The position numbers and the translations under genes are program-made. Below the pieces are notes generated by a model. It was not told the origin of the DNA, ran no database searches, and saw nothing but the letters and a program-made list of their open reading frames with translations. Positions 26,113 through 56,253 of a stretch of DNA of 64,000 bases are shown here, piece after piece. Position 1 is the stretch's first letter. Every line of letters begins with the position of its first letter. The stretch is from Physcia stellaris (Eukaryota; Ascomycota; Lecanoromycetes; Caliciales; Physciaceae): NCBI GenBank assembly GCA_018902385.1, contig JABSSW010000005.1, positions 930,001-994,000 on the forward strand. The letters run 5' to 3'.

Positions 26113-26221
26113 TCTAACATCCACTCTAACGGTACCGGTGCACCGGTACCGCAAATTTTGGTGAGTGGGGTTAGGGTTAACTAGCTCCGGTACCGATGAA
26201 ATGTTCAGCCAGCGGTACCGG
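26113..26221 (+). repeat. Terminus of element A: palindrome plus telomere-like tract
   Basis: From the outside inward: TCTAACATCCACTCTAAC (26113-26130), a perfect 20-bp palindrome GGTACCGGTGCACCGGTACC (26131-26150), then TTTTGGTGAGTGGGG, the telomere-like GGGGTTAGGGTTA (26167-26179), and a second weaker hairpin with CCGGTACCG/CGGTACCGG arms (26187-26195, 26213-26221). The half-palindrome GGTACCGGTGC is the same word found in the satellite units that follow. Ordinary host DNA lies immediately to the left. Confidence 0.8.
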
Positions 26222-27715
26222 TGCGAGTTCTCGATGAAAACTTAACATATGACAAATCTGAAAGCAGTTCTGAAATCAGCATGAAAAAACGCATCATTTT
26301 CATATATATAATGTCCCGATTGGGCTAGCGGTTGATTTTATAAAAAATTTTCAAGCAAGATTTTCGAAAATTTCGACTAAGTCCCGAGATTCTTGCGGTA
26401 CCGGTGCTGTTTCTCGATGAATACTTGACGTATCGTAATTTTGAGACCAGTTTTGAAATCTACAAGAAAAACGGAATAAAAAAGTGGTGGGGTTGAGCCG
26501 GATCGGGTTAGCGTCTGATTTGTTACGAATTTTTCGAATTTTGATAACTCGAAAATTCGACTAAGTTTCGAGATTCTTGCGGTACCGGTGCTGTTTCTCG
26601 ACGAATATTTGACGTATCGTAATTTTGAGACCAGTTTTGAAATCTACAAGAAAAACGGAATGATAAAGTGGTGGGGTTGAGCCGGATCGGGTTAGCGTTT
26701 GATTTGTTACGAATTTTCGAATTTTGATAACTCGAAAATTCGACTAAGTTTCGAGATTCTTGCGGTACCGGTGCTGTTTCTCGACGAATATTTGACGTAT
26801 CGTAATTTTGAGACCAGTTTTGAAATCTACAAGAAAAACGGAATGATAAAGTGGTGGGGTTGAGCCGGATCGGGTTAGCGTTTGATTTGTTACGAATTTT
26901 TCGAATTTTGATAACTCGAAAATTCGACTAAGTTTCGAGATTCTTGCGGTACCGGTGCTGTTTCTCGACGAATATTTGACGTATCGTAAATCTGAAATCA
27001 GTCTTGAAATCTACAAGGAAAACTGAATGAAAAAGTGGTGAGATTGGGCCGAATCGGGCTAGCGGCTAATTTGTTACGAATTTTTCGAATTTTGATAACT
27101 CGAAAATTCGACTAAGTCCCGAGATTCTTGCGGTATCGGTGCTGTTTCTCGACGAATATTTGACGTATCGTAATTCTGAAATCAATTTTGAAATCTACAA
27201 GAAAAACTCAATAAAAAAGTGATGAAATTGAGCCGGATCGGGTTAGCGGCTAATTTGTTACGAATTTTTCGAGTTTTGATAACTCGAAAATTCGATCGAG
27301 TTTCGAGATCTTTGCGGTATCGATGCTGTTTCTCGATGAATATTTGACGTATCGTAATTCTGAAATCAGTTTTGAAATCTACAAGAAAAACTCAATGATG
27401 AAAAGATGAAGTTGAATCGAATCGAGTTAGAAACTAATTTGTTACGAATTTTTCGAGTTTTGATAATTCGAAAATTCGATTAAGTTTCGAGATTCTTGCG
27501 ATATCGATGCTTTTTCTCAATGAATATTTGACATATCGAAAATTTGAAATCAGTTTTGAAATTTACGTTAAAAATAAAATAAAAAAGTGATAATGTTTAG
27601 TCAAATCGAATTAGTGTTTAATGTTTTACGAATTTTTCGAATTTTTTTATCTCGAAACTTTAATTAAATTTCGAGAATTTTGCGATAACGCAATCGTTTC
27701 TAAATTTGTACATGA
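26213..27715 (+). repeat. Satellite array A, about 183-bp units with GGTACCGGTGC cassette
   Basis: About eight tandem units; cassette starts near 26213, 26396, 26579, 26762, 26947, 27130, 27314 and 27497 give a period of about 183 bp. Each unit reads cassette, then TGTTTCTCGACGAATATTTG, a middle block with CCAGTTTTGAAATCTACAAG and GAGCCGGATCGGGTTAG, and an end with CGACTAAGTTTCGAGATTC. Units nearest the terminus are GC-balanced and nearly identical; they become stepwise AT-rich away from it (GGTACCGG to GGTATCGG to GATATCGA). Changes are mostly CC to TC and GG to GA. Homologous arrays with a different cassette occur at 34.05-35.39 and 38.4-39.2 kb in opposite orientation. Confidence 0.85.
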
Positions 27716-27769
27716 ACGTTAATTGAATTAAAATAATAAAATAACAAATATATTAATATCAAATCAACA

Positions 27770-28640
27770 AAATTCATGCACGAATATAATTTAATTCATG
27801 CACGAATATAATTTAATTCATGCACGAATATATTTTAATTGATGCACGAATATATTTTAATTAATGCACGAATATATTTCAATTCATGCACGAATATAAT
27901 TTAATTCATGCACGAATATAATTTAATTCATGCACGAATATAATTAAAATTCATGCACGAATAAATAAAAATTCATGCACGAATATAATTTAATTCATGC
28001 ACGAATATATTTTTAATTCATGCACGAATATATTTTAATTCATGCACGAATATTTTTTAATTCATGCACAAATAAAATTTAATTCATGCACGAATAAATA
28101 AAAATTCATGCACGAATATAATTTAATTAAATGCACGAATATATTTTAATTAAATGCACGAATATATTTTAATTAAATGCACGAATATAATTTAATTCAT
28201 GCACGAATATATTTTAATTTATGCACAAATAAATAAATATTCATGCACGAATACATTTATTAACTTTAACAATACAAATTTACTTTTACACAAATCATTT
28301 AATTAATTGCGCGAATAAATAAATATTCGTGCATGAATAAATAAATATTCGTGCATGAATAAATAAATATTCGTGCATGAATAAATAAATATTCGTGCAT
28401 CAATAGATAAATATTCATGCACGAATAAATTTAATATTTGTAACAATACAATTTAATTTTTACACGAATCAATTTAATTTTCGCACGAACAAAAAAAAAT
28501 TCGTGCATGAATAAATAAATATTCGTGCATGAATAAATAAATATTCGTGCATGAATAAATAAATATTCATGCATGAATAAATAAATATTCATGCATGAAT
28601 AAATAAATATTCATGCACGAATAAATTTAATAAATTTAAT
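27770..28640 (+). repeat. Minisatellite of element A, TTCATGCACGAATATAATTTA type
   Basis: Several dozen imperfect units of roughly 20-22 bp. The core TTCRTGCAYGAA is palindromic or nearly so and is separated by AT spacers such as TATAATTTAA or TAAATAAATA. From about 28320 units appear mainly as the reverse complement (TTCGTGCATGAA). The same minisatellite lies at 32.17-33.59, 36.16-36.59 and 37.27-37.76 kb, always between the satellite array side and the leader of an OrsD frame. It contains no GG or CC. Confidence 0.85.
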
Positions 28641-29166
28641 AATAAAATTTTATTCTTTTTGCAATATATAAACAACGAAATTTTGTCTTTAATTCTTTTT
28701 CAATCGTTCACATTTTTCACATTTTCACACATTTACACACGAAACATACACACGATACACATATTGACAACAAATTTACAAAATACACATACGAAACACA
28801 CATACAACATACATATTCAAACGATATACACAAAACACAAACACGAAACACACGCACGAAATATATACACGCAACATATACACAACACATACACATTTAC
28901 AATTTTCACACGAATTACATACGCGAAATACAACACAAAAACATTAAAAAATCTTTGAACGTTAAGTTTATTTCAATTTGTTAATTTGTTTTTTGATTTT
29001 TTTGATTTTATTGTTTTATTGTTTTATTGTTTTATTGTTTTATTGTTTTATTGTTTTATTGTTTTATTGTTTTATTGTTTTTTGTTTTATTGTTTTATTG
29101 CTTTACTGTTTTATTGTTTTATTGTTTTATTGTTTCTTTTTATTTTCAAGAAAAAAACTTTTCAAA
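28641..29166 (+). promoter_or_regulatory. Leader of OrsD-type gene, copy A
   Basis: Upstream segment shared by three copies (also 31629-32165 and 35539-36150 on minus). It starts with a TATATAAA-like box (GCAATATATAAACAACG), continues through about 300 bp rich in ACACA/ACACGAA, then TTCAATTTGTTAATTTG, and ends in an 8-bp microsatellite (TTTTATTG)n at about 29005-29135, directly before the ATG at 29167. It reads as promoter plus long pyrimidine-biased 5' leader. Long open frames across the microsatellite (LLFYCFIV repeats) are a by-product of an 8-bp repeat. Confidence 0.6.
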
Positions 29167-30526
29167 ATGTCGTTTTACGATATCAACAATTCTAACGTCA
29201 TTGACAACGTTGAACGAATTAACGATTTTCTTTATTACAATAAAGAATTCAAAATCGTTTTTTGTACAAAATGTCACGTCGTTATAAACAACGAAAACAA
29301 CGACAAATCAATTACTCATTTCAATTCTAACGTTCAACATCGAAATTTAACTTTCAACGAGAAAAAATCAATTATAAACGACTTGAAAAATTACACACTT
29401 GTTTGACGAAAGATATTGAAATTCCTCAAAATTTCAAGCATTTTTTCCGTTTTTGTACACATATAACGACGCTTTTTCGTGTAAAAAGTGTTCGTATGTT
29501 GTACGTAAAAAAAAAAAATGAGTACTCATTGTAATCAACAACACAATGACAAAAAAACAAAACAATCAACAGAAACGTTTTATAATTCGAACGTATACGC
29601 GCAAATTTTTACAACAAATCGATATCGAAAATTTTTCGCTGTTTTATTCAACGACAATCAAATCAACGTTACACGTCAAAATTCAACGTTACAAACAAAT
29701 TTTACAAACGACGAAACAAATCAAATCAACGAATATAATCAACAGTTAAACGATATCAAAATGCAATCGATTCAACGAAACGAAACGACACAATTCAAAG
29801 AATACAATTTGTTTTTACAACAATCATATTTTCACGAATATCTTGAAAACAAAAACATTGACGAATTAATTCAATCTGTTAATACAAAATTCTTGAAACA
29901 ACACGAACAATTACGATGTTTACACGAATTAACGATTGAACTCGCAATTAAATCGAACGAATTAATTCAAAAATTCGATATTCGATTAAAACAATTGTTA
30001 CATACAGATAAAGCAATCGATATTGCTTTACATAACAAAAAAATGAATCCGTTTCAAGAATTGCAAAATACGTCGTCAACTCAAGATTATTATTCGACGT
30101 TTGCAGATTTAATCTGTTATATTTATTATTCAATCGAAATTGAAAAATCGAATTATTCGCAACCGATTATTACAACGAAAATTGCTCAATCTATTCGATT
30201 AATTACGCAACTTTTGTCTCGAATCAACGAAATTGACAACAAAAAACAACAAGACGAATTTAAACAAATAATTAAAACGTCTATTATTCGATTAACGTTT
30301 GAATTGTTATGTCAAAAAACAGAACAAAAACGTCTCGACAAACACGCAACGTTTGACAGTATTGTTGTCACGTTTTTTATTTGCAAATCAATAAGTTCTG
30401 TTCATAAAACGTTCATTAAAACGTCAATGATCGAAAAATTATGCAGCAAACTTCTTTACATGCTTCGATATTTTTTTATGTTATACGTCAATTATCGAAA
30501 CGAATTAAACAACAACGATGAAAACG
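29167..30526 (+). pseudogene. OrsD-type (DUF3505) zinc-finger protein, N-terminal part, copy A, broken
   Basis: ATG at 29167 encodes a start matching copy B (MSFYDINNSNV...). The first CxxC...H...H finger is present in residues about 30-60; the frame is then interrupted near 29.40-29.52 kb and resumes from 29518 with the region after the second finger. Copy A reaches about 270 bp further downstream (30256-30526) than copy B, encoding a segment with LTFELLCQKTEQKRLDKHATFD and a hydrophobic Leu/Tyr-rich stretch. It ends at 30526, where inverted copy B begins; the apparent last 25 codons of the frame after that point are antisense of copy B. The family (PF12013, OrsD) occurs in large fungal proteins, including, as I recall, ones related to telomere-linked helicases; no helicase region is present here. 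Confidence 0.65.
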
Positions 30527-30527
30527 G
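30526..30527. other. Tail-to-tail junction of elements A and B
   Basis: Plus-strand homology to copy A ends at about 30526; from 30527 rightward the sequence is the reverse complement of copy B, beginning with GTTTAAATTCGTCTTG, which corresponds to positions 30247-30263 of copy A. The two arms differ at many codons and carry different cassettes, so this is not a recent perfect palindrome. Confidence 0.7.
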
Positions 30528-31628
30528 TTTAAATTCGTCTTGTTGTTTTTTGTTGTCAATTTCGTTGATTCGAAACAAAAGTTGCGTAATTAATCGAATA
30601 GATTGAGCAATTTTCGTTATAATAATCGATTGCGAATAATTCGATTTTTCAATTTCGATTGAATAATAAATATAACAAATTAAATCTGCAAACGTCGAAT
30701 AATAATCTTGATTTGTCGATGTATTTTGCAATTCTTGAAACGAATTCATTTTTTTGTTATGTGACGCAATATCGCTTGCTTTATCTGTATGTAACAATTG
30801 TTTCAATCTGATATCGAATTTTTGAATTAATTCGTTTGATTCGATTGCAAGTTCAATCGTTAATTCGTGTAAATAACGTAATTGTTCGTGTTGTTTCAAG
30901 AATTTTGTATTAACAGATTGAATTAAATCGTCAATGTTTTTGTTTTCAAGATATTCGTGAAAATACGATTGTTGTAAAAACAAATTGTATTTTTTAAATT
31001 GTGTCGTTTCGTTTTGTTGAATTGATTGCATTTTGATATCGTTTAATTGTTGATTGTATTCGTTTATTTGATTTGTTACGTCGTTTGCATAATTGACATC
31101 AATTGTTGTGTAATCGTTATTCGAAATATTCGTGTTATTTGAAAAATTAACAGCGAAATATTTTTTGTATCGTCCAGATGTAAAAATTTGAGCGTAAATG
31201 TTTGATTCGTAATTTTTTTCTTTGTTTTTTGAAATATTCTTGATGTTATGTTGTTGATTCAAATGTGTACGTATTTTTTTATCGTTTCGTACAACGTACG
31301 AACATTTAGAGCAAGAAAACGCATCGTTATACGTATATAAATACGAAAAAAAATGTTTGAAATTTTTCGAAATTTTGACGTCTTTAATCGATACAAGTGA
31401 ATATGTTTTCAACGTGTTACTGATTTCTTTTTTTTCGTTGAACGTTAAATTTCGATGTTGAATATTTGACTTGAAATGTGCATCGAAATTGTCGTTTTTA
31501 TCGTTGTTTAAAACGTCGTGACATTTAGAACAAATAACGATTTTGAAATCTTTATTGTAATAAAGAAAATCGTTAATTTGTTCAACGTTGTCAACAACGT
31601 TAGAATTGTTAATATCGTAAAATGACAT
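30527..31628 (-). CDS. OrsD-type double zinc-finger protein, N-terminal part, copy B
   Basis: Open frame from ATG 31628, about 367 codons of genuine homology before the inverted junction (the frame runs on to 30492). It shows two fingers: C33-x2-C36-x14-H51-x6-H58 and C106-x2-C109-x12-H122-x4-H127, matching the OrsD/DUF3505 pattern (CxxC ... HxxxxH twice). Then come SNIYAQIFTSGRYKKYFAV and LLQQSYFHEYLENKNIDDLI, regions that follow OrsD in large fungal proteins. One Gly, and Pro/Trp almost absent, as the DNA lacks GG and CC. Differences from copy A are largely conservative (I/V, D/E, S/T, K/R), suggesting past selection on the protein. Truncated at its C-terminus by the junction. Nucleic-acid binding is inferred from the fingers. 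Confidence 0.7.
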
Positions 31629-32165
31629 TTTGAAAAATTGATTTTTTTTGTCTTAAAATTGAAAGAAAAAAGAATTAAAAACGTAAACAAAAAACAAAAA
31701 TCAATAAAACAATAAAACAATAAAACAATAAAACAATAAAACAATAAAACAATAAAGCAATAAAACAATAAAACAATATAACAATAAAGCAATAAAGCAA
31801 CAATAAAAAAACAATTGAAAAAACAAACAAAAAACAAATTAACAAATTGAAATAAACTTAACGTTGAATTTTTTTTTGTATTGTATTTTGCGTATGTAAT
31901 ACGTGTAAACGTTGTACGTGTATATATGTTGTAAATATGTTGCGTGTGTATATTTCGTGCGTGTGTTTTCTGTTTGTGTTTTGTGTATATCGTTTGAATA
32001 TGTATGTCGTATGTGTGTTTCGTGTGTGTATTTTGTATGTTTGTTGCGAATATATGTATCGTGTGTATGTTTCGTGTGTAAATGTGTGAAAATGTGAAAA
32101 ATGTGAATGATTGAAAAGAAATTACAGAGAAAATTTCGTTGTTTATATATTGCAAAAAAATAAAA
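31629..32165 (-). promoter_or_regulatory. Leader of OrsD-type gene, copy B
   Basis: Same plan as copy A, read on the minus strand: TATATAAACAACGAAATTTT at the distal end, an ACACGAA-rich 5' leader and the TTTTATTG microsatellite at about 31700-31810 before the ATG. Confidence 0.6.
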
Positions 32166-32169
32166 TTTT

Positions 32170-33590
32170 GTTATTGAATTGATTAAATTTATTCGTGCAT
32201 GAATATTTATTTATTCATGCATGAATATTTATTTATTCATGCACGAATATTTATTTATTTATTTATTCGTGTAAAAATTAATTTGTATTGTTAAAACTAT
32301 TAAATTTATTCGAATATTTATTTATTCATGCACGAATAATTTATTCGTGTGAATATTTATTTATTCATGCACGAATATAAATTTATTCGTGCACGAATAT
32401 TTATTTATTCGTGCATGAATTAAATTGATTCGTGTAAAAATTAATTTGTATTGTTAAAATTATTAAATTTATTCGTGCATGAATATTTATTTATTCGTGC
32501 ATGAATATAAATTTATTCGTGCATGAATATAAATTTATTCGTGCATGTATTAATGTTTATTAAATTTAATATTAAATTTATTCGTGCATGAATATAAATT
32601 TATTCGTGCATGAATATTTATTTATTCGTGCATGTATTAATGTTTAATATTTTTATTATTAAATTTATTCATGCATGAATATTTATTTATTGTTGCATGA
32701 ATATTTATTTATTCGTGCATGAATATTTATTTATTTGTGCGTGTATTAATGTTTAATATTTTTATTATTAAATTTATTCGTGTATGAATATTTATTTATT
32801 GTTGCATGAATATTTATTTATTCGTGCATGAATATTTATTTATTGATGCACGAATATTTATTTATTCATGCACGAATATTTATTTATTCATGCACGAATA
32901 TTTATTTATTCGTGCATGAATTAAATTGATTCGTGTAAAAATTAATTTGTATTGTTAAAATTATTAAATTTATTCGTGCATGAATATTTATTTATTCGTG
33001 CATGAATATAAATTTATTCGTGCATGAATATAAATTTATTCGTGCATGAATATTAAATTTATTCGTGCATGAATATAAATTTATTCGTGCATGTATTAAT
33101 GTTTATTAAATTTAATATTAAATTTATTCGTGCATGAATATAAATTTATTCGTGCATGAATATAAATTTATTCATGCATGAATATTTATTTATTCGTGCA
33201 TGAATATAAATTTATTCGTGCATGAATATAAATTTATTCATGCATGAATATTTATTTATTCGTACATGTATTAATGTTTATTATATTTAATATTAAATTT
33301 ATTCGTGCATGAATATAAATTTATTCATGCATGAATATTTATTTATTCGTACATGTATTAATGTTTATTATATTTAATATTAAATTTATTCGTGCATGAA
33401 TATTTATTTATTCGTGCATGAATATAAATTTATTCGTGCATGAATATTTATTTATTTGTGCATGTATTAATGTTTAATATTTTTATTATTAAATTTATTC
33501 GTGCATGAATATTTATTTAATCGTGCATGTATTAATGCGTATTATTTTTAATATTAAATTTATTCGTGCATGAATTAAAAAATTAATATT
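32170..33590 (-). repeat. Minisatellite of element B
   Basis: Longest copy of the TTCRTGCAYGAA minisatellite, about 1.4 kb, mostly TTCGTGCATGAA separated by TATTTATTTA or TATAAATTTA. A higher-order pattern is visible: a spacer containing TGTATTAATGTTTA and TTTAATATTAAA recurs every 150-250 bp (for example 32545, 32630, 32745, 33090, 33265, 33350, 33465, 33525). Confidence 0.8.
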
Positions 33591-33698
33591 TTTAAATTTG
33601 TTCATATTGTTTATTCAATCTATATATTCTTGTTGATTTCAATTTTTATTTTAAAATATCAACATTTTCTTGAAAATATCTCAAAACAAATTCACATT

Positions 33699-33965
33699 AT
33701 GTCTACAATGTCAAACACAGATTTTGTTGAATATTTAGAATATATTCTTGACAGCAATTTCGATTCGATTGTATCAACAATGACAAACGAAAATTTACGA
33801 AATCAATTCGAATATTTTCTCGATTCTAATTTCGATTATATTTTGACAACAATTTTCGACGTTTTGTCATTATTATCGAAACAAAACACGTTTACATTCG
33901 ACGAAATATGCACAATTATTCACAATATGTTTAAATCAACATTTCGACGAAATGTTGATTTTTAA
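33699..33965 (+). CDS. Small acidic ORF of element B, 88 aa
   Basis: ATG at 33699 begins MSTMSNTDFVEYLEYILDSN. The protein is short, acidic and helical-looking, with two similar segments (YLEYILDSNFDSIV and QFEYFLDSNFDYIL) and a basic end (KSTFRRNVDF). It lies between minisatellite and satellite array and is transcribed toward the array. A positional counterpart, also starting MST, sits in element C at 37920-38177, but sequence similarity between the two is weak. No family recognised. Confidence 0.35.
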   Translation: MSTMSNTDFVEYLEYILDSNFDSIVSTMTNENLRNQFEYFLDSNFDYILTTIFDVLSLLSKQNTFTFDEICTIIHNMFKSTFRRNVDF

Positions 33966-34049
33966 CAAATTTATCAAAACAATGTGAGTTTTCTTGATTT
34001 GATATTAATGTTTTTGTTGTTTTATTATTTTATTCAATTAACGTTTATA

Positions 34050-35390
34050 TACAGATTTGAAATTCATTTCGATAACGCAAACTTTTCGAAATTTAATCGA
34101 ATTTTCGAAATACAATAAATCGAAAAATTCGTCAAAATTTGATTTTTATTCGATTCGACTCAACTTTGTCAATTTTTATTTTCAAATTTTACGAATATTT
34201 CAACATCGATTTCAAATTTTCGTTACGTCAATCTTTCATCGAACAAAGATATCGATATAGCAGAATTTTCGAAATTTAATGAAATTTTCGAGATAAAAAA
34301 AATCGAAAAATTCGCAAAAAATCAATCATTTATTCGATTCGATTCAATTCTGTCATTTTTCATTTTCATTTTTTACATAAATTTCAAAATTGATTTTACA
34401 TTTTTGATATATCAATTATTCGTCGAAAAACGACTTCATTATGACAAATTTCTCGAAACTTAATCGAATTTTCGAGATACAAAACTTCAAAAATTCGTGA
34501 AAAATCAGTCGCTAACCCGATCGGGCTCAACCTTACCACTTTTTATTTCCATTTTTTTCGCAGATTTCAAAACTGGTCTTACATTTTCAATATGTCAAAT
34601 ATTCGTCGAGAAACGGCTTCGGTACCGATGTTTTATCGAGACTTAGTCGAATTTTCGAGATACAAAAATTCAAAAATTCGTAGAAAATCAGCCGCTAACC
34701 CGATCGGGCCCAACCTTACCACTTTTTATTTCCATTTTTTTCGCAGATTTCAAAACTGGTCTTACATTTTCAATATGTCAAATATTCGTCGAGAAACGGC
34801 TTCGGTACCGATGTTTTATCGGGACTTGATCGAATTTTCGAGATACAAAAATTGAAAAATTCGTAGAAAATCAGCCGCTAACCCGATCGGGCCCAACCTT
34901 ACCACTTTTTATTTCCGTTTTTTTGTAGATTTCAAAACTGGTCTTACATTTTCAATATGTCAAATATTCGTCGAGAAACGGCTTCGGTACCGATGTTTTA
35001 TCGGGACTTGATCGAATTTTCGAGATACAAAATTTCAAAAATTCCTAAAAAATCAGCCGCTAACCCGATCGGGCCCAACCTTACCACTTTTTATTTTTTT
35101 TTTACGTAGATTTCAAAACTGGTCTTACATTTTCAATACGTCAAATATTCATCGAGAAACGGCTTCGGTACCGATGTTTTATCGGGACTTAGTCGAATTT
35201 TCGAGATACAAAAATTGAAAAATTCGTAAAAAATCAGGCGCTAACCCAATCGGGACATAATGTATGTGAAAATGATGCAGTTTTTTACGCTGATTCCAAA
35301 TCTGGTCTCAGATTCTTCGTATCATAAGTATTCGTAAAATAATCGCTTCGGTACCGATGTTGTCACCGAACATCGATACCGAAGCTAACG
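34050..35390 (-). repeat. Satellite array B, about 183-bp units with ATCGGTACCGAAGC cassette
   Basis: Homologous to array A in reverse orientation. Cassettes lie near 35350, 35168, 34986, 34804 and 34620 (period about 182-184 bp); further units at about 34436, 34252 and 34074 are decayed to AT-rich forms. Common unit sequence is shared with A (CGTTTCTCGACGAATATTTG, CCAGTTTTGAAATCTGC, GCCCGATCGGGTTAGCGGC), whereas the cassette is different. GC-balanced units lie next to the terminus at 35.4 kb; decay grows toward 34.05 kb. Confidence 0.85.
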
Positions 35391-35456
35391 AACCCTAACC
35401 CCACCCACCAAAAACATCGGTACCGAAGCTTCGGTACCGGTAGAGTGAATGTTAGA
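35345..35456 (-). repeat. Terminus of element B: two hairpins and telomere-like tract
   Basis: From inside outward: a hairpin with 17-bp arms GCTTCGGTACCGATGTT (35345-35361) and AACATCGATACCGAAGC (35369-35385); ACCCTAACCCCACCC (35392-35406); a 22-bp perfect palindrome at 35418-35439 built from CGGTACCGAAGC and its complement; then GTAGAGTGAATGTTAGA to 35456. The cassette ATCGGTACCGAAGC is identical to that in array B. Immediately outside is a truncated OrsD frame of element C. Confidence 0.8.
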
Positions 35457-35538
35457 ATTCTTCGTTGTAATAAAGAAAATCGTTAATTTGTTGAACGTTG
35501 TCAATAACGTTAGAATTGTTAATATCGTAACAAGACAT
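35457..35538 (-). pseudogene. OrsD-type gene, copy C, first 27 codons only
   Basis: ATG at 35538 begins MSCYDINNSNVIDNV and stays homologous to copies A and B for 27 codons, up to ...YYNEEF, where the sequence is replaced by the terminus of element B. The rest of this copy is not found in the window. Its leader and minisatellite follow on the right. Confidence 0.75.
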
Positions 35539-36150
35539 TTTAAGAAATTTTTTTTTTCAATGAAGCAAATAGAAATAACAACGTAAACAATAAAACAATA
35601 AAACAATAAAACAATAAAACAATAAAACAATAAAACAATAGAAAAATAAAACAATAAAACAATAAAACAATAAAACAATAAAACAATAAAACGATAAAAC
35701 GATAAAACAACAAAACAATAAAACAATAAAGCAATAAAACAATAAAGCAATAAAATAAAAAAACAATTGAAAAAACAAACAGAAAACAAATTAACAAATT
35801 GAAATAAACTTAACGTTGAAAGATTTTTTTTTATTGTATTTCGCGTATGTAATACGTGTGAACGTTGTACGTGTATATGTTTCGTGCGTGTGTTTCGTGT
35901 TTGTGTTTTATGTATATCGTTTGAATATGTATGTCGTGTGTGTGTTTCGTGTTTTGTTTTGTGTATATCGTTTGAATATATATGTCGTATGTGTGTTTCG
36001 TATGTGTATTTTGTGTGTTCGTTGCGAATATGTGTATCGTGTGTATGTTTTGTGTGTAAATGTTTGAAAATATGAAAAATGTGAATGATTGAAATAAAAT
36101 TACAAAGAAAATTTCGTTGTTTATATATTGCAAAAAAAATAAAATTTTGT
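35539..36150 (-). promoter_or_regulatory. Leader of OrsD-type gene, copy C
   Basis: Third copy of the leader on the minus strand: TTTTATTG microsatellite at about 35587-35760, then the ACACGAA-rich segment and TATATAAACAACGAAATTTT near 36110-36130. Well conserved with the other two leaders, though its gene is only a stub. Confidence 0.6.
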
Positions 36151-36159
36151 TGTTAAATT

Positions 36160-36595
36160 TATTAAATTTATTCGTGCATGAATATTTATTTAATCATGCA
36201 CGAATATTTATTTATTCATGCACGAATATTTATTTATTCATGCATGAATTGAATTGATTCGTGTAAAAATTGATTTGTGTTGTTAAAATTATTGAATTTA
36301 TTCGTGCATGAATATTTATTTATTCATGCACGAATATTTATTTATTCATGCACGAATTGAATTGAATATTCAATTCGTGCAAAAATTATTTTATATTGTT
36401 AAAATTATTAAATTTATTCATGCACGAATATTTATTTAATCATGTACGAATATTTATTTATTCATGCATGAATTGAATTGATTCGTGTAAAAATTAATTT
36501 GTATTGTTAAAATTATTAAATTTATTTATGCATAAATATTTATTTATTCATGCACGAATATTTATTTATTCGTGCATAAATTAATTTTAATTATG
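36160..36595 (-). repeat. Minisatellite of element C, first block
   Basis: TTCRTGCAYGAA-type units with AT spacers including the recurring spacer TTCGTGTAAAAATTAATTTG. Followed on the right by a non-repetitive AT segment and a second minisatellite block. Confidence 0.75.
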
Positions 36596-37265
36596 TAAAT
36601 ATTAATATGTATTATTATTATTATTAAACAAGTTTGTTCGTGAATTTTTTCAAAAAAATTTCATGCAAAATTTCAAAATTAAATTTGAATTTGATAAAAT
36701 TGCGAAAATCGACATTTCGCAATTGCTTTGCGATGTCATCGATTTCGCATTTTAATAACATTTACATTCAACAAATAAAATATACAAACGAAAATTCATT
36801 TTGAAACTCAAAGTGAATTCTATTCAAACAATTAATAATATCGAAAATTCATCGAGTGCGCATTGAATTATGATCGAAATTGCATTGAAACGTTGCAAAC
36901 ATTGTCGAAAATTTTGCGCAACACATTTTCGCAAACACAAATTTGACAACGACGTGATTTTCGAATTTTCAAAATTATTGCGATAATGAATCGATTTTTG
37001 TCATTTTTACGATTTTGAAATGCGTTCATTTTGCTTTACAATATGAATTATTCAAATGAAAATCATATGTGATTGTTAATTGCGATGCAAAATGTGCAAT
37101 AATTGAACGTTGTTGAAACGTTTTGAAATGATCTTGACGTATGTTTCGATTGAAAATTCGAATTATGTATTGATTGAATTTATCGACTTTAAAAAATACG
37201 AACGCAAAATTGATCAAAATGTTTTTCGATCGATCATTCGCGTTAAGCGAATTTACAGAATATTT
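36596..37265. other. AT-rich interruption between minisatellite blocks
   Basis: About 670 bp of non-repetitive, GG/CC-free DNA. It contains TTGCGATAAT (about 36979) and other TTGCGA/TCGCAA words like those dispersed in AT block I, so it may be a fragment of block-I-type DNA inserted in or left between the minisatellite blocks. No gene recognised. Confidence 0.4.
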
Positions 37266-37269
37266 TATT

Positions 37270-37765
37270 ATAAAAAAATTTTATTTATTTGTGCATGAAT
37301 TAAATTATATTCGTGCATGAATTAAATTATATTTGAACATGAATTAAATTTTATTCGTGCATGAATTAAATTTTATTCGTGCATGAATTAAATTATATTC
37401 ATGCATGAATATTTATTTATTCGTGCATTTAATATTTATTTATTCGTGCATGAATATTTATTTATTCGTGCATTGAATATTTATTTATTCGTGCATGAAT
37501 ATTTATTTATTCGTGCATAAATATTTGTTCATTTGTGATTGAATATTTATTTATTTGCATGAATTAAATTATATTTTCATCGTGCATGAATTAAATTATA
37601 TTCGTGCATAAATTAAATTTTATTCGTGCATCAATTAAATTATATTCATGCATCAATTAAATTATATTCGTGCATCAATTAAATTATATTCGTGCATGAA
37701 TATTTATTTATTCGTGCATGAATAAATTTTTATTGTAAATATTATTCAATTTATTCGTGCATGAA
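37270..37765 (-). repeat. Minisatellite of element C, second block
   Basis: TTCGTGCATGAATTAAATTA and TTCGTGCATGAATATTTATT units, about 500 bp, same core as the other minisatellites. Confidence 0.75.
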
Positions 37766-37919
37766 TAAAAATATTCATTTATGATTTAATTTTACTTTTG
37801 AATTAATTTTCATGTTTATTTAAACAATCATCATTTCACGTTTAATTTTTTGTTGATTCAAATCATTTATTCAATCACAATTCATCATACAACGAATATA
37901 TTTATTATTCATCATAAAT

Positions 37920-38177
37920 ATGTCGACTTTTGTACACGAAAATTTTAACGATTATTTTACAACAATCGACGATTTCGAAACATATCTTGTTGAATTTATT
38001 GATTCAATTTCAAATTTTATAATCGATGACGAACTTTTGATTTATTTGCTTAAATCAAAAAAAAATATCGAAAATTATTTTTGGATAAATATCGTTTATG
38101 ACGACGAAAACGATGAAAAACGATTGAATAAAATTATAATTCGTGAATATAAACGATCTAATGTAAATGATCAATAA
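37920..38177 (+). CDS. Small acidic ORF of element C, 85 aa
   Basis: ATG at 37920 begins MSTFVHENFNDYFTTIDDF; acidic and aromatic-rich with a basic tail. Same place and orientation as the 88-aa ORF of element B (between minisatellite and satellite array, reading toward the terminus). No family recognised. It contains one Trp (TGG), unusual in this GG-poor DNA. Confidence 0.35.
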   Translation: MSTFVHENFNDYFTTIDDFETYLVEFIDSISNFIIDDELLIYLLKSKKNIENYFWINIVYDDENDEKRLNKIIIREYKRSNVNDQ

Positions 38178-38399
38178 TTTGTAATTTTAATTATAAAATT
38201 CTAATTGTTATAGAAATTTATTCAATTTTCGAACGAACAAGAAGATTATTTTGAGAATTTGTGATCATAAAATTCAATAATTTTTCGAAATACAATGTAA
38301 GTTTGAAATTCGAATTACATTGTTTTAAATTATAAGCTTATTATTAATAAACAGTGATTTAAAATTAATTTTCTTTTATTTACAATTTATATATCAATT

Positions 38400-39195
38400 T
38401 TAATAGCGATTTCAATAACGTCTTTTTTTTTCGTAAATTTGTTTAGTTTTAAGTGAATTTTCAAATCGATTGTATTCAAAAAAATTCGATTTTCGAAATA
38501 TTTTCGTGACGAAAATTTGAAAAAATCATAAAAAATTAATCGTTAATTTAATTAATCTCAATCTTATCATTTTTCAACTTCAAATTTTACGTAAATTTCA
38601 AAACTGATTTCAAATTTTCGATACGTGTAATATTCATTAAATAACGACATCACTTTCAACGAAATCTCGAGACTTCGAGAAATTTTCGACACGAAAACTT
38701 TCAAAAATTCGTATAAAATCAGTCACTAACCCGATTCGATTCAATCTTACCTCTTTTCAATTTCATTTTTTACGTAGATTTCAGAACTGGTTTTACATTT
38801 TTGATACGTGTAATATTCATCGAGAAACGACTCGGGTTCCAACGAAATCTCGGAACTTCGAGAAATTTTCAACACGAAAATTTTCAAAAATTCGTATAAA
38901 ATCAGGCACTAACCCGATTCGACTCAACCTTACATCTTTTCAACTCCATTTTTTGCGTAAATTTCAAAACTGGTTTTACATTTTCGATACGTGTAATATT
39001 CATCGAGAAACGACTCGGGTTCCAACGAAATCTCGGGACTTCGAGAAATTTTCAATACGAAAATTTTCAAAAATTCGTATAAAATCAGGCACTAACCCGA
39101 TTCGGCTCAACCTTACCTCTTTTCGATTCCATTTTTTACGTAGATTTCAGAACTGGTTTCAAAATTTCGATACGTGTAATATTCATCGAGAAACG
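38400..39195 (-). repeat. Satellite array C, about 183-bp units with TTGGAACCCGAGC cassette
   Basis: About four or five units homologous to arrays A and B, cassettes near 39200, 39012, 38830 and 38650, spaced about 183 bp. The cassette CGTTGGAACCCGAG replaces the GGTACC-type words of A and B; flanks such as CGTTTCTCGATGAATATTAC and the AGAACTGGTTT block are shared. Units next to the terminus keep GG/CC; those toward 38.4 kb are decayed. Confidence 0.85.
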
Positions 39196-39307
39196 GCTCG
39201 GGTTCCAACGAAATCTCAAATCGTTGGAACCCGAGCTAAGTAACCCTAACCCCACCCACCAAAATCGTTGGAACCCGAGCTCGGGTTCCGTTAGAGTGAA
39301 TGTTAGA
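39196..39307 (-). repeat. Terminus of element C, abutting the NRPS-like gene
   Basis: Hairpin with 16-bp arms GCTCGGGTTCCAACGA (39196-39211) and TCGTTGGAACCCGAGC (39221-39236); TAACCCTAACCCCACCCACC (39241-39260); perfect 20-bp palindrome GGAACCCGAGCTCGGGTTCC (39270-39289); terminal GTTAGAGTGAATGTTAGA (39290-39307). The terminus overlaps the stop codon of the NRPS-like frame (39303-39305). Confidence 0.85.
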
Positions 39308-49711: not shown

Positions 49712-52700
49712 TGCAGGTCAGCCGACCTCGTTTGTTTATCTCGATTGATTTGATGAATTTCATCTGATTTCGATTAATTTCATTTGAACTCGATTGATCG
49801 ACTAGTGCGAAACACATAAAATGTATATACATAAATAAAGCATTTAATCGTTTTTTTTCAACATTATACATATCATGAATGCATTCGCGAATTTCATCGA
49901 TTTGAAACAAATAATAAAAAATTTCTAATATATTCGTAACATATTCTTAACTGATTTAAATTCATAGTTGATTTCAGAATTTTCAATTGTTGATTTGAAA
50001 TCGAAAAATGTTTTCGTAACATTTTTTCGAAATCAAGAGAAAATAACAATTCATTATCAAAATGTTTACAATACATTAATAACATATTTTTTCAAGCTCG
50101 ACATAGAAATTTCGTCTTTTGAACAAAAACGCATTCAAAACGAGCGAATTTGTAAAAAAAAAAAAGATTATGAAACAAGTTAATGATTTGATTGATTAAC
50201 GTGTTGCAAATATATTAACAACATGTTAAATTGTTGAAAAAATTTCTATAATTTTTGACGATAATGATTCAATGTCAATAATTGTACAAAAAATTAAATA
50301 CAGCATCGAGCTTTCAAAATTTTCAAAATCGTCGAATAAAAAAACAGCATATGTTTTGAATTTGACAAATAAAAATTTAAAAAACATCAATGCTTTGAAA
50401 AACGTAAGCGAAAAAATTAACAATCATTTATCAAAATTTTCTTAATGTATTCAAAACTTTATTAACAAACAAAATAATTTCAATATTGCAAATCACAAAT
50501 TCGATCTTCTCGCAATGCAATTTGTTTTTTAATGAATAATGTTCATTGTCGTAATTTTCATTACAAATGTACAGAAAATACAATATGTTCGCAATTGAAT
50601 ACGAAACTCAAAACATTGTTTTATTATCAATTAATTGAAAATATTTGAAATATTTTTCACAGAATTCGAACGACATGTTTCAGAAAGACATCAAAACACA
50701 ACGCAACGACGTAAGATATATTCACATTTGCAAAAAAAATTTGACAAGATTTTGACAATATGTTGACAAAATATTTAGATAATATAATGCGATTCATAAA
50801 CGTTTTTTTCAAAAGAAAACTTGTTCGCAATTCGAAAAATTTTGCAATAGTGTTTATGTGATCACGAACAACACGATACGAATCAATTGATTGACAAAAT
50901 ATTGACAAAATATTTTTAATCTGTTAAATTGTGTTCGAAATTTCGATTCATTTCGTGAAATGTATCAATCATCGACGTCAAAATGAACATTTTTTTCAAA
51001 TTATATTATCAACATTGATGTCAAAAGTCAATATCATTCGTGATTTGATTTATGATCGTTCGATTGCGAATAATTCATGTGCTTTTTTCAAAAGCAATGA
51101 TACGAAAAAACATGAATGTGATTAGTGCATTCAATATATTATCAACATATTATTAAGATATTATCAAAATTTTAAATTATAATCATATTCAGACGAAATC
51201 AAAACTCGAAATTGTATCATGCAATGTCGAGTTTCGTTTATTTTTGTCACAAAATCTCGTTGTGTTTTATGCAATTTTTATTTCGCATGACAAATATATT
51301 CATTTTTCGTCGAAATTTTTCAAAACATTCAAAAACATCGTGAATACGATTTACATTTTGATTGAACGAATCAACAATTCGAAATTCAATTTAAATACGT
51401 AATTTTTTTTCAATACATTGATAAAATATTAACAATTTTTAAAATCATTTTTTTATCAATTTTATCGTTCAAGAATTTTGTCGTGACAAAAAATTATTCA
51501 CGTTGTCGAAAACGCATTTTTCGTTAATCAATATGAACAAATTTCGATTGTTGTTACAAAAACATCGAATATTGATTTATTTTTTTGATCAAAATGTTGA
51601 AACTGTTCAACATTACGTTGTCATTCGAAAAGAAAATATCGAGCATGCAAAAATAAGCAAAATTTTGAAAACGCGTTTTCAATATATTAACAAAAAATTG
51701 AAATCAGTATGTGAAAAAAATTTTCATTGAGAGTGATTTTTTCATGATCATATGTATGTTGAATGAACAAATTCAAATTCTGTTGAAATTGAAATTTTTT
51801 GAATTAGATATGTTTTTTCAAAAAATTAAAAAAATCGATTTCAATGAGATCGTCTTTGCGATATACGAAAAAAAACAAAATAAAAAAAAGTATTGAGAAC
51901 GCTTTCAAAATACATTGATAATATTTTATTAATTTTTATGCAATGTTTATTTTTTGTCGTGTTTTTATGAATCGACAAATTGAATGAATTTACATGTTAT
52001 TGTTTCAACATGTGTTTAAACATGTCGAAACAATAATTCGACAATCAATCAAATGACAACACATTCACAATGTCGATTTACATGAAATAATAATGAATAT
52101 AAATGCAAAACAGATGAAAAATATATATAAAATTTTGTTAAATTTTTAACAATATGTCTTTAATGTATTAACAATAAATCTTGTTTTATATTTGATTTTC
52201 ATCGATTCACAAAATCGACATTGAAAAATTCATTTTCAATTCGTAATATTGTTTTGTCAAATTCATTTCAAACGTGATGTGATTAAAACATTTGATACGA
52301 TCGATTCGTTCAAAAATCATTACAATTCGTTTGTAACGCTTTTGAGTTGTCAGAACAAACGAAAATATTTCGATTTGCTCAATTTATTAAAAAGATTTGT
52401 AAAGCTTCATCAAAATTTTGAAAATACATTGACAATAATTTATCAAATCAATTTTCGAAAAAACGATCGATTCAAAAGTGAATAAAACATAAATCGCATT
52501 CAAAAATCGTCGCAAAATTATGTCAAAAATGTTTTTTAATGAACAAAAAAGTTTTTCATCGCATTCGAAAACATATCAATGCGATAAAGCAAACACATTA
52601 CAAAAACAATTCATTTGACAAAAAATTGTTTATGTTAAAAACAATTCAAATGTAAATCAAAACTTTATCAATACATTGATAAAATATTGTGAAAAAATTA

Positions 52701-55700
52701 ACAATTGTTAAAAACGAAAAATGTGATCGAAAAAATGTTTTGCAACAAAAAATGTTCAAAACGTGAAAAATTAATCACAATTCTCGAAACAATAATTTAA
52801 CAAACAAATTTTACATCGAGCAAGAACGATCAAATAAGCGAAATTTTTTTCAATACATTTGAAACACGTTGTTAATGTGTTTAGTTTCGAAAAAACGCAA
52901 TCGTCAAAATGTCACAAAAAATTCGAATTTGATATTGTATGAAATGTTTTCATTCGGCAATTTTACAACGCAAACTCAATTTACATCGACTTTTGATGAT
53001 AAATTTTTTTCACGAAATTCGTTTCGAGCACGAAAAATTTCACGTCAAAAATTTCAACAAGCGAGATGAATAACAGACTTGATTAAAACTTTGACAATGT
53101 ATTGACAAAATATTACAGATTTTCGAAATTTGTTCGAAGAAATTATTTCAAATTCGCAAAATACAGAATTATTTTTACAAAAACGTCGTGTGAAATTGCA
53201 ATTGAAACAAGCGAAAATTCGAAAATTGAAATTAAAAAACGAAAAAGTCGCGTTGAAAAACGAACAACTTAAAAGTAATTTGCATAATATTTTTTTTTAA
53301 TGTATTGACAATATCTTGTCAATTTTTTATCAATTAAATTTTCTTTCGATTGTCAATATTGTTTCAATTGATAACACATTAACAATATGTTATTTGTTGA
53401 TTAACATTGTATATTTCGATATTAAAATCAAATTCAAAATGTTTTCAATGTATTGAAAATATCTTGTTTAGAATTAAACGATTGTATATGTTTCATTAAT
53501 AGAAACGAAAATTTGATATTGCAAATATTCTTTGATAATTTTGCAACGTGTTAACATGAACGATACAAAATTGATAATTATTTCAATTTTGTAAATTTTA
53601 TAATATTGTAATCAATATTGTTTTATGTTTATTTTTTTGATACAAATGATTGAATCATTTTTCGAATCAATATATATTAAACAAATTATCAATTATAAAT
53701 TGTTTTTTTTATTACGAACATGTTTAACAAATAAATTTGACAAATAAATAATTTGATAAATTGATTGATTTGACAAATATGTCGAAATAAAAAAATTATG
53801 TTTTTATTTTTATTAATTAATTTCGAAATTAACGTGAATCGAAATTTGACGTTCGCGTATTATTTGCAATTTTAACAATTTGTATTTGTTTATTTTTACA
53901 AATTTATTGTTTTTGTTTAATTAATCAATAATACGTTTATTCAAACACGATTCATCATAATTTCAATAAAATTAAAACAAATAAACGTGAAAATTTTGTT
54001 GAATATCGTCATATAATTTTTTTTCAAATTAAATTTAAATTACAATTTTTTCGTTGATTGTGTTGTTAAAAACAACAATAAAAAATAACAAAAAATAACA
54101 AAATTTTGAATTCGAAAATGTATACAATCGATATCGAATCAAATTATATCGTTGAAATCGTTGACGATATAACGAAATTTTCGAAATTAAACAAATGTTT
54201 TTAACAATTTGTTATTTGTTTAATATTAAATTTTTTATTGTTTGTTAACAATTTAATTGTTTTTTAACATGTAAAAAATATGTGCAATTTATGAATAAAT
54301 TCAAACGTTATTAATATTGCAAAAATCGTGAAAAAAATGAAACAGAATGAGAATATTCTTAATATTTTAACAACGTATTAAGAGAAATTACGGCAATGTC
54401 ATCGTTAAATTTTTTAAAACTCGAAACGTTTAATATTTTCTCAATACATTAACAAAGTATTTTTTTTTCATGAATGATCGAATGAGAAAAACAAAATGAA
54501 TATATTAATAACATATTAAAAGAATTTTGCAATTAAACATGTCGATTTCTCGAATAAGTTTTAATATATTGTTAACACATTCGTAACATATTGTCGTTTG
54601 TTGATGTTTTGACGAAATTTATTTTAATTGTATGCATTTTCAAGCATGAAATCACGAAAAGCAAAAGTGAAAACGAATCAATTTTTTCTCAATGTGTTAT
54701 AAACATATTGAATAAAAGTTTCGTTGCATATCGAAGTTTAAATACATGCAATTTCTAAGATATTGTTAAAATGTTGTTAATGAATTGATAATTCATTGTC
54801 AATTCATTTTATTCATGTTTCAGAAATTTTTGATTGATTTGCATCATTCGCATCAACAATTTCGCTGTTGAATGAATCAGATTGCTCAAATTTCGACACG
54901 ATTTCATCGTTTTCAGTAATTTCGGCAGCGAAATGACTGAAAAAATCGCATTCGAAATCACGCATCGAACAATCTGATTTTCGAAATTAATTAATATATT
55001 GTCAATGCATTGACAATGAATTATTTATTTTTGATTTTTTTTTTTTGCAAAAGTCGCACTTGCGTTTTCATTTTACGATTTTTTTGATTTTCGTATAATT
55101 GAATTAAACAATCGATTGTTAATGTATTAACAATGCATTGTTCAAAAATCATGATGAGAAAACGAAACAACGACAATACATTAATAAAACATTAGAAAAA
55201 TATTGAAAATGATTTATTTTTTTTTCGTTTTTGTGCATGCGTTTGGGAATTGCAAATTTGTTAACACGAAAATTCTTGATTGATTTTTTGAAAACAACAA
55301 CAACAATTTTTGTCTGTTTTTCGTCGAAAAAGCGATTGTCATTTGTTTCGTACGCGTTTTGAATTCGCATCATTTTGACAAAAAAAATTGCAACATTTTG
55401 ATAAAACATTTCTAATACATTGTCAAAGTATTGAGTTTATTTTTGTCACGTTTCATCTCGTTATTGAAGCTGGTTTTCGGTCGAGTTTTCATGAATGACT
55501 TGTAGTTTTTGTCGTCAAAGTGAATGCTAATATGAGCACGAAAATTGTCGATGTTCGACAAAAAAATTTAATGCGTTGTCAATACGTTGACAACGTGTTA
55601 TCAACACGTTGTTTTCATTCATTTTTTTGTGACAAAACATTGAAAAATCGTCGTCATTTGTCACATTCAGACGACAGAATAATTCATCGAAAATCAAAAA

Positions 55701-56253
55701 TGCATAGAGTTCGCTAAACTGTCGAAAGCGAAAGCAATTAACAAGATATTGTCAATGTATTAACAATATATTGTCGATTGTTTGATAATAAATCATGTTT
55801 TTCGAGTTTCGTTCAATTGAATATATTTTCAATCGATTGAAAATAAATTAGCAAAAGAATGTCGCAAGTTTTATCAAGCAACTTTCAATATCGTAATACA
55901 TTGAAAATATATTAAGAATTCATTTGACATAGTGAAAGCAAAATTCATTTCAAATTTTAGAAATGATCAATTCGAACAGCGTTTTTTCAATTGCTTGTAA
56001 CGAACATATTTATACATCATATTAGCAATGTATTTGAAATGCTTTTAGTTTTAAATTATCATTTACTCAAAATCAAATTTCATGATTGCTCGAGTCTGCA
56101 AAGCTGTATGATGATTAGATGAGTAAATTCGTGAAGAAAGTGAACGTATTTTTAATTTGATGATTGATTCGGCGTTAGCGATTTGCGGCTCGCAGATCAA
56201 TCGAGATCAAATGAGATCAGCCGAGGTTCTTCGCTGAGGTCATCTGACCTGCA
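49712..56253. mobile_element. AT block II: 6.5-kb unit bounded by inverted repeats
   Basis: Starts 48 bp after the P450 stop. The ends match as inverted repeats: TGCAGGTCAGCCGACCTC (49712-49729) versus the complement of 56236-56253, TGCAGGTCAGATGACCTC, 16 of 18. A second matching segment lies inside (about 49778-49800 versus about 56195-56217, roughly 21 of 23; ATTTCATTTGAACTCGATTG against ATCTCATTTGATCTCGATTG). The interior is AT-rich with only a handful of GG/CC pairs and no recognisable gene. No target-site duplication seen. The right end has kept more GG/CC than the left. Class unknown; the inverted ends would suit a DNA transposon or a non-autonomous unit. Confidence 0.55.
49920..56050. 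repeat. Dispersed CAATACATTGACAATATATT-type motif, about 30 copies
   Basis: A roughly 20-bp word, consensus CAATACATTGACAAAATATT, recurs every 100-300 bp with variation (examples near 50062, 50208, 50757, 51413, 51684, 52428, 52668, 53097, 53303, 53443, 54443, 54995, 55125, 55575, 55750, 55893). The word contains two near-inverted CAATRYATTG halves. Spacers show no repetition I could see and include short open frames (for example 51503-51730, 52249-52485, 52869-53069). It is the counterpart of, but different from, the TTGCGATAA array of block I. Confidence 0.65.

Follow-up and report, generated by a model that had tools for sequence, protein, structure and literature searches.

Three related AT-rich DNA elements (A, B, and C) have their ends in the analysed window, a 64,000-nucleotide stretch of Physcia stellaris contig JABSSW010000005.1, and each end joins a constant part, formed by an 18-bp tip and a telomere-like tract, to a word of about 16-20 bp that is specific to the element. 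Copies of this word from one element agree, apart from a single one in the tip region of A (site 72), and those from different elements disagree. Sequence comparison points, with a probability of about 0.5, to recognition of the word by an OrsD-type protein that the element itself encodes, site and candidate reader diverging together.

Layout of the elements and their conserved ends

The 18-bp ends at 26113 (A), 35456 (B), and 39307 (C) deviate from GTTAGAGTGAATGTTAGA by 1, 1, and 0 mismatches, respectively, against a chance expectation of 0.08 (Table 1). The initial annotation had described unit flanks, a telomere-like tract, and a terminal sequence shared by A, B, and C, and the shared end and tract are confirmed, with 16-17 of 18 positions identical between ends and 22-23 of 23 between tracts in pairwise comparison. 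Together with the tip and the tract, the leader and the 22-bp word of the AT-rich arrays are less variable between elements than the element-specific word; the leader reaches at least 80% identity in 23 of 27 comparisons (80-column windows, gaps left out; lowest 40/59). A and B are oriented tail to tail, and the B terminus cuts C inside the OrsD-type gene of C. A single simple insertion of A-B into C is unsupported, because the left flank of A, inspected by eye, does not continue the C gene.

The word occupies the same positions in all three elements (terminus bases 19, 28, 72, and 97, then one position in each satellite unit of about 183 bp), forming an inverted pair at the tip, an inverted pair in the sub-terminal hairpin, and a single copy per unit. 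Directly behind the 18-bp end lies a perfect palindrome of 20 bp in A, B, and C, extending to 22 bp in A and B, which in each element consists of that element's own word. Folded as single-stranded DNA, the terminal palindrome and hairpin gave z values of -6.6, -7.2, and -6.7, with none of 200 shuffles as good in any of the three cases. In the arrays, units A1-A4, B1-B4, and C0 match the 16-mer of their own element exactly, C1-C2 carry one change, and A5, A6, and A7 carry 1, 3, and 3 changes; in the inner units A8, B5-B7, and C3 the element's own word is not intact, and B5-B7 fit the A and B consensus about alike (9-10/20 each). The 5' arm of the A hairpin (site 72), TCATCGGTACCGGAGC, differs from word A by 5 changes and from word B by 2. 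The proposal that palindrome, hairpin, and better preserved units share one word therefore does not hold throughout A, where site 72 is B-like. Pfam matches below the cut-off also occur, such as DUF3764 (E 0.0013) on a satellite ORF.

Table 1. Positions of the features of elements A, B, and C in the window.
Feature	Positions	Strand	Basis or remark
A conserved 18-bp end, TCTAACATCCACTCTAAC	26113..26130	+	identity 16/18 to B, 17/18 to C
B conserved 18-bp end	35439..35456	-	match to GTTAGAGTGAATGTTAGA
C conserved 18-bp end	39290..39307	-	match to GTTAGAGTGAATGTTAGA; adjoins NRPS-like reading frame
A terminal perfect palindrome, word A (GGTACCGGTGC) and reverse complement	26131..26150	+	sequence
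B terminal perfect palindrome, word B (GGTACCGAAGC)	35419..35438	-	sequence
C terminal perfect palindrome, word C (GGAACCCGAGC)	39270..39289	-	sequence
A 23-bp tract, telomere-like core	26156..26178	+	22/23 same as B, 22/23 same as C
B tract, telomere-like core	35391..35413	-	sequence identity
C tract, telomere-like core	39242..39264	-	sequence identity
A sub-terminal hairpin, 5' arm B-like, non-A word; 3' arm word A, 2/16 changes	26184..26224	+	
B sub-terminal hairpin, word B, one transition in one arm	35345..35385	-	
C sub-terminal hairpin, 16-nt word C exact in both arms	39196..39236	-	
A satellite array, units A0-A8, about 184 bp	26197..27684	+	A8 decayed
B satellite array, B0-B7	33917..35372	-	word B in B0-B4, absent in B5-B7
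C satellite array, C0-C3	38492..39223	-	C3 decayed
A 22-bp AT-rich tandem array	27771..28631	+	word TTCATGCACGAA, common to A, B, C
B 22-bp AT-rich tandem array	32186..33575	-	word as in A and C
C two 22-bp AT-rich arrays (36166-36628 and 37286-37774)	36166..37774	-	other sequence between
A broken OrsD-type gene	29167..30540	+	out of frame at about codons 80-117
A stretch matching B codons 43-181 (approximate)	29293..29709	+	divergent block
B OrsD-type gene, 365 codons up to A/B junction	30534..31628	-	OrsD domain residues 21-128
B divergent block, codons 43-181	31086..31502	-	comparison with A
C OrsD-type gene, first 27 codons, cut by B terminus	35457..35538	-	
B small ORF, 88 aa, toward terminus	33699..33965	+	no Pfam match at cut-off
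C small ORF, 85 aa, toward terminus	37920..38177	+	no Pfam match

Variation of the word within and between elements

The mean word distance within an element was 0.050, compared with a mean of 0.227 under relabelling, and a value as low was obtained in 1 of 1296 relabellings, bearing out the earlier claim that the word is kept in step between terminus and array; between elements, copies at the same position differed by 0.340. The 16-mer words differ at 6/16 (AB), 8/16 (AC), and 6/16 (BC) positions and all three contain GGWACC and a final GC. The idea of unrelated words was therefore rejected, and the term exchangeable cassette is too strong for homologous variants that have a core in common. 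The divergence of the 12-column core alone (2/12, 5/12, and 5/12 for AB, AC, and BC) is not significantly above that of the flanks (Fisher p 0.69, 0.18, and 0.10); for AB, the 16-column word exceeds the flanks in divergence by a marginal amount (p 0.052).

A contrast was found in the ratio of fixed to polymorphic columns, which for AB, AC, and BC was 9/0, 8/1, and 9/1 in the word block (columns 9-28) versus 12/31, 23/37, and 16/34 in its flanks (Fisher p 8e-5, 0.0056, and 0.001), in counts that omit the inner units A5-A8, B5-B7, and C3 as well as unit 0 of A and B, and in which units within one array are not independent of each other. The word boundaries follow the reading of the initial annotation and our own, a choice removed in part by a scan of 164 20-column blocks of the unit, in which the blocks starting at columns 7 and 8 tied for first (most fixed-different, least polymorphic). 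The top-ranked blocks overlap the word, and the block that stands out is wider than the 12-column core and shifted to the left. Within elements, pairwise differences in the 16-column word numbered 0/96 (A), 0/96 (B), and 2/48 (C), and those in the flanks 65/1005, 54/993, and 46/501. In unit 0 of A and B, the flanks follow position (22:4) and the word follows the element (4:0; p 0.0026). The unit-0 flanks are thus orthologous yet each carries its own word, and therefore common descent of the flanking units, named beforehand as an outcome that would speak against the proposal, is excluded as the source of the word match for A versus B.

The OrsD-type gene and its divergent block

The B protein matches the Pfam family OrsD (PF12013) over residues 21-128 with 36.9 bits (gathering cut-off 26.6; E 5.5e-9). 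The separate pieces of the A gene gave no Pfam match reaching the cut-off, OrsD (PF12013) included, and eight putative zinc ligands are still legible by eye across its frames. The AlphaFold2 model of the B protein, computed from one sequence, had a mean pLDDT of 38.0. Comparison of the A and B genes revealed a mosaic, with 135/414 bases differing in codons 43-181 and 41/678 in the remainder (log-likelihood ratio 66.1; maximum 18.7 in 60 permutations). Synonymous divergence (dS) was 1.5 in codons 41-180 versus 0.22 in codons 1-40 and 0.18 in codons 181-365, with a dN/dS of 0.2 in codons 41-180, from a count that dropped 3 of the 365 codons for gaps and skipped codons read as stops. Plain positive selection on the finger block is unsupported, given this dN/dS and the divergence of synonymous sites; the mosaic is also present in these sites and therefore reflects old divergence or recombination rather than demonstrated adaptive change. 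Gene conversion could also have contributed to the low divergence of codons 181-365, as these are close to the centre of the A/B inverted repeat.

In A versus B, the sole comparable pair (A being broken and C lacking the finger region), the divergent block spans the greater part of the OrsD region and some sequence downstream; by eye, its start lies ten residues past the first cysteine of the fingers (residue 33), and its end is well downstream of them. The suggestion that the word is read by the element's own zinc-finger protein thereby gains indirect support from the position of the block, weakened by its extension downstream. The element-specific words, together with the difference between A and B in the DNA-binding part of the candidate reader, suggest that every element has an address and a putative address reader of its own. 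A finding against this reading is that no copy of the word with at most one mismatch was present in the OrsD promoters.

Competing explanations and likeness to known systems

If the OrsD-type protein binds the word, it would load densely on its own array and tip, and the bound protein could mark, activate, or synapse the element's own ends. A change in the reader would then favour matching changes at every site. Re-amplification appears to affect the units near the tip, with decay of the inner ones. Also running counter to this reading are the absence of a matching word at site 72 of A and in inner units, and the 12-column core, which alone does not surpass the flanks in divergence. The word copies sit in tandem and inverted repeats, where conversion, unequal exchange, and template switching are common. 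Passive concerted evolution by such events (short conversion tracts, unequal exchange, or template switching at inverted repeats), with the word unread, would keep the copies of an element uniform and would also give the decay of inner units expected when homogenisation fades. However, this rather doubtful alternative does not predict the gene mosaic, nor a word that is more uniform than its flanks within an element in a block more diverged between elements, and for unit 0 of A and B, which kept its own flanks while its word matches the array, it would call for conversion tracts about 20 bp long that hit the word.

Recognition of the word by a silencing or telomere-associated host factor, with elements diversifying the word to escape or exploit the host, fits the telomere-like tract between two inverted word pairs and a unit of about 183 bp, near the nucleosome-repeat length, but a single host should impose a single word and three coexist within 13 kb, which makes it improbable. 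Hardly probable is the view that the words are replication-origin iterons, the elements replicating through hairpins with an element protein as initiator of iteron specificity. The palindrome and hairpin do fold as single-stranded DNA far better than shuffles, and fixed word positions with variable sequence resemble geminivirus iterons as described in the available part of PMC12548392; against this, no replication-initiator, helicase, or nuclease family reached the cut-off in the 11 of 26 A-C ORFs scanned, from elements that are truncated.

The proposed binding of the word by the OrsD-type protein has its closest parallels in plants. In excerpts on the soybean CACTA (En/Spm) element Tgm, which has TnpA-like accessory proteins, short conserved terminal repeats accompany a variable sub-terminal motif with direct and inverted copies and stem-loops, as in A-C; an element-encoded DNA-binding protein is thought to recognise the motif, a role for which the OrsD-type protein is the candidate here, and the motif differs between subfamilies, reader co-evolution being raised as a question (PMC2613891). 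The direct and inverted copies are present in A-C as in CACTA/EnSpm, but all three ends read TCTAACAT[T/C]CACTCTA[A/C]C, a TCTAAC-type terminus instead of a CACTA start, and the motif lies in satellite units of about 183 bp as well as in the palindrome that immediately follows the 18-bp tip. Element-specific short motifs in tandem repeats whose units evolve together are found in A-C as in Arabidopsis VANDAL elements (PMC5735166, in part), whose VANC protein, in the sections available, has conserved and highly variable regions and is sequence-specific for its own copies (PMC5735166), with binding shown by ChIP-seq and EMSA (PMC5735166, PMC10398659); the reader of A-C is putative. VANDALs are MuDR-type, and the accessible text of PMC5735166 makes no mention of a terminal motif palindrome. 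The initial annotation knew of no described fungal element of this kind, which agrees with the literature matches listed, although the plant CACTA and VANDAL elements share the logic.

Other systems resemble A-C in single respects. Long ends with tandem repeats and a layout as long inverted arms, seen in A/B, recall Drosophila Galileo/Foldback, where the Galileo repeats hold sites of the zinc-binding THAP domain of the transposase, according to the portion seen of PMC3688188. In their two longest matches, the A/B arms share 76-80% identity, and their junction, near 30535, is off centre; since A and B have different words, they do not form a homogenised inverted repeat. Geminivirus iterons and Rep, as partly documented in PMC12548392, likewise keep repeat position and pattern while sequence differs among close relatives with a cognate reader, although for one geminivirus this identity proved dispensable in replication; unlike these circular ssDNA viruses, A-C are chromosomal and no Rep domain was found in the 11 of 26 ORFs scanned. 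In the same ORFs, from truncated elements, no transposase family (tnp2-type, MULE, THAP/P-type) reached the cut-off. Helitrons and Helentrons have a 3' CTRR end and a Rep/helicase, and these ORFs gave no Rep or helicase family at the cut-off, one kind of end being in view. By eye, no target-site duplication was common to the flanks of A, B, and C, none of which has both ends certain. The non-eukaryotic collections searched returned eight viral_contigs matches to the terminus, none with an adjoining palindrome by eye, no viral and three bacterial matches to the tract (the latter taken as chance from their titles), and no relatives of the B protein, none of the 36 stretches fitting its pattern being confirmed.

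Dispersed words also occur in two unrelated AT-rich blocks, TTRCGATAA at 1-7.3 kb of the window and an ATTRAYAA-type word at 49.7-56.3 kb. By 9-mer count, the former block was narrowly flagged (22 versus simulated 17) and the latter was not (top count 12 versus simulated maximum 31). Strict periodicity of the TTRCGATAA word was unsupported (best period 106 bp, with a power of 7.3 against 7.4 for the random 95% level), and only its even spacing holds. As a speculative and rather unlikely extension, each AT-rich lineage might have a private repeated address and its own reader, the unrelated blocks with their private words included, and the finger block and word of A, B, and C might form matched specificity modules, subject to divergence or exchange in an otherwise shared element, amounting to modular self/non-self labelling of eukaryotic mobile elements.

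How selfish elements recognise only their own ends and avoid the machinery of others has been best worked out for the VANDAL and CACTA elements of plants. The three sister copies described here, which lie within 13 kb, combine a constant tip with a variable word that recurs in step at set positions, and one pair shows a divergent block in the candidate reader. The decayed inner units and the leftover hairpin arm are possible records of earlier words, and, if the binding is true, fungi would offer a system for following the joint change of address and reader.

Ends of elements A, B and C

The gene blocks of the window, of ~42-54% GC, are interrupted by three AT-rich regions, and their genes are of fungal secondary-metabolism type, including an ornithine decarboxylase domain, an AMP-binding enzyme, a P450, a sulfotransferase, and MFS and peptidyl-arginine deiminase-type proteins. 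The source is probably an ascomycete. Allowing one mismatch, the window has three copies of an 18-bp end, where 0.08 would be expected; they form the tips of elements A, B and C. These are taken as true element ends because their outer flanks are unlike one another, the C end adjoins an NRPS-like reading frame (AMP-binding_C above the cut-off, Condensation just under it), and the B end is positioned after codon 27 of C's own OrsD-type gene. From the tip inward, all three carry a perfect 20-bp palindrome, the tract GGTG[A/G]GTGGGGTTAGGGTT, a hairpin, a ~183-bp satellite and 22-bp AT-rich repeats, followed by an OrsD-type gene directed away from the tip; a small ORF directed towards the tip is present in B and C. 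The single-stranded fold of each end was better than 200/200 shuffles. No transposase was found in the 11 of 26 ORFs scanned in this region.

The 22-bp arrays contain a near-palindromic word, TTCRTGCAYGAA, common to A, B and C; each of three core 9-mers occurs 23-42 times per element and is absent from the window's other AT-rich blocks. The A and B genes meet tail to tail, off-centre, and A is ~270 bp longer than B at the junction, giving a spacer within a long inverted repeat.

Positions of the features in the window
Feature	Position	Remark
AT-rich block 1	1-7.3 kb	
Short inverted repeat	7408-7482	CCTGTCAGCAGGGTTAGGGTTG ... CAACTCTAACCCTTCTGGCAGG; telomere-like cores; edge of block 1; by eye
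Middle AT-rich block	about 24-39.3 kb	
Tip of A	26113	rightward
22-bp array of A	27771-28631	
A/B gene junction	30258-30545	
22-bp array of B	32186-33575	
Tip of B	35456	leftward
22-bp array of C	36166-37774	
Tip of C	39307	leftward
AT-rich block 3	49.7-56.3 kb (49712-56253)	
AATRYATTGAYAA matches	51.4-55.8 kb	10/10 in window
Tandem 27-bp repeat	56881-57033	5.7 copies

The element-specific word and its flanks

In the alignment of the satellite units, one block takes a different form in each element. The 16-mer words, CTTGCGGTACCGGTGC in A, ACATCGGTACCGAAGC in B and TCGTTGGAACCCGAGC in C, differ at 6 (AB), 8 (AC) and 6 (BC) positions; they are homologous, with GGWACC and the last two bases, GC, in common. 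Their positions are alike in the three elements, at bases 19, 28, 72 and 97 from the terminus and once per unit. The mean word distance within elements was 0.050, compared with a relabelling mean of 0.227, and 1/1296 relabellings was as low. The own element's word was the nearest for 11/12 tip sites, sites 19 being compared as 11-mers; the exception, site 72 of A (distance 2 to B, 4 to C and 5 to A), seems to be the remnant of a former word of B-like type.

In the proximal units (A1-A4, B1-B4, C0-C2), the 20 columns 9-28 held 9, 8 and 9 fixed differences and 0, 1 and 1 polymorphic columns (AB, AC, BC), whereas fixed/polymorphic counts in the flanks were 12/31 of 159, 23/37 of 162 and 16/34 of 160 columns (Fisher p = 8e-5, 0.0056 and 0.001). 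A scan of 164 20-column blocks ranked the two that begin at columns 7 and 8 jointly first, with a score of 0.43 versus 0.22 for the best block without word overlap. Divergence by itself is a less striking signal: the 16-column word differed at 6/16, 9/16 and 7/16 columns and the flanks at 28/167, 39/167 and 34/167 (p = 0.052, 0.0075 and 0.040), and for a 12-column core the divergence was not significant against the flanks.

In unit 0, the unit nearest the tip, 22 informative flank sites join A0 and B0 against the arrays and 4 join each to its own array, whereas 0 word sites join A0 and B0 and 4 join each to its own array (p = 0.0026). The flanks thus pair A0 with B0 while the word pairs with its own array, and therefore the word was altered inside orthologous units; for A and B, this comparison of units is the strongest evidence of more than shared descent. 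Inward, the word is lost from the units: in A there is 1 change in A5, 3 in A6 and 3 in A7, with A8 still more distant, and B5-B7 are about equally similar to the A and B consensus (9-10/20 each; 7-8/20 to the C consensus). We infer that units are re-amplified near the tip and decay inside.

The OrsD-type gene as candidate reader

The B protein has an OrsD domain (PF12013, 36.9 bits, cut-off 26.6, residues 21-128), in which two C2H2-like fingers were recognized by eye. All eight ligands are retained in A across its broken frames (by eye), the separate pieces of this gene falling below the OrsD cut-off. The A and B genes form a mosaic, as codons 43-181 differ at 135/414 bases and the remainder at 41/678 (log-likelihood ratio 66, maximum 18.7 among 60 permutations). 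In codons 41-180, dS is ~1.5, a rough value near saturation, and dN/dS is 0.2; dS falls to 0.22 over codons 1-40, a value from just 4 changes, and to 0.18 over codons 181-365. By these values the block looks like an old, constrained divergence within a younger frame, a pattern that exchange or specificity types maintained over a long time would produce, and unlike a burst of amino-acid change. Conversion near the A/B junction could have reduced the C-terminal divergence, but the leader too is at least 80% identical in 23/27 window comparisons of the three elements (minimum 40/59, excluding gaps), and C lies outside the A/B inverted repeat.

Words of other AT-rich blocks and known systems

With 2.4 copies expected, TTRCGATAA is present 36 times in 1-7.2 kb and twice in the rest of the window. 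Its spacing is even, with a mean of about 205 bp (CV 0.46 versus 0.96 random, 0/2000 as low), and its strand switches near 2.9 kb (14/15 on + before, 19/21 on - after), between longer ORFs on the - strand to the left and the + strand to the right. Its flanks are unconserved except for a purine bias immediately 5' (29/35), and the 8 ORFs scanned, of 14 listed for block 1, gave no Pfam family at the cut-off. Inverted copies of TGCAGGTCAGNNGACCTC, near-palindromic at their core, bound block 3 at its two ends; the block contains every window match of AATRYATTGAYAA (0.07 expected) and a dispersed ATTRAYAA-type word (34 ATTRAYAAW matches versus 2.7 scaled from block 1), and the one ORF scanned of 8 listed, some extending outside the block, gave no match. 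A plain 9-mer count narrowly flagged the TTRCGATAA block and left block 3 unflagged. These patterns suggest that private addresses may be common among the AT-rich elements of the window.

Relatives of A, B and C in logic are found in several systems. In CACTA elements the tips are conserved and the sub-terminal motifs variable, co-evolution of a TnpA-like reader with the motif being posed as a question (PMC2613891); VANC proteins of VANDAL elements bind motifs that accumulate and co-evolve in tandem repeats (PMC5735166); Galileo has several THAP sites within the tandem repeats of its ends (PMC3688188); and geminivirus iterons are constant in position and variable in sequence (PMC12548392). By their terminus, A, B and C do not fit CACTA. 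No fungal case was among the matches listed in the literature search, and in the excerpt of a study of TET/JBP-bearing fungal transposons VANDAL appears as background only (PMC12730594). Word matching, the unit-0 contrast and the gene mosaic are observed, the last in one reader pair (A, B); we infer that the OrsD protein is most likely a word-binding self-marker: it would bind the word and thereby label its own copies, serving either TnpA-like end synapsis or VANC-like anti-silencing, while site and reader would change together.
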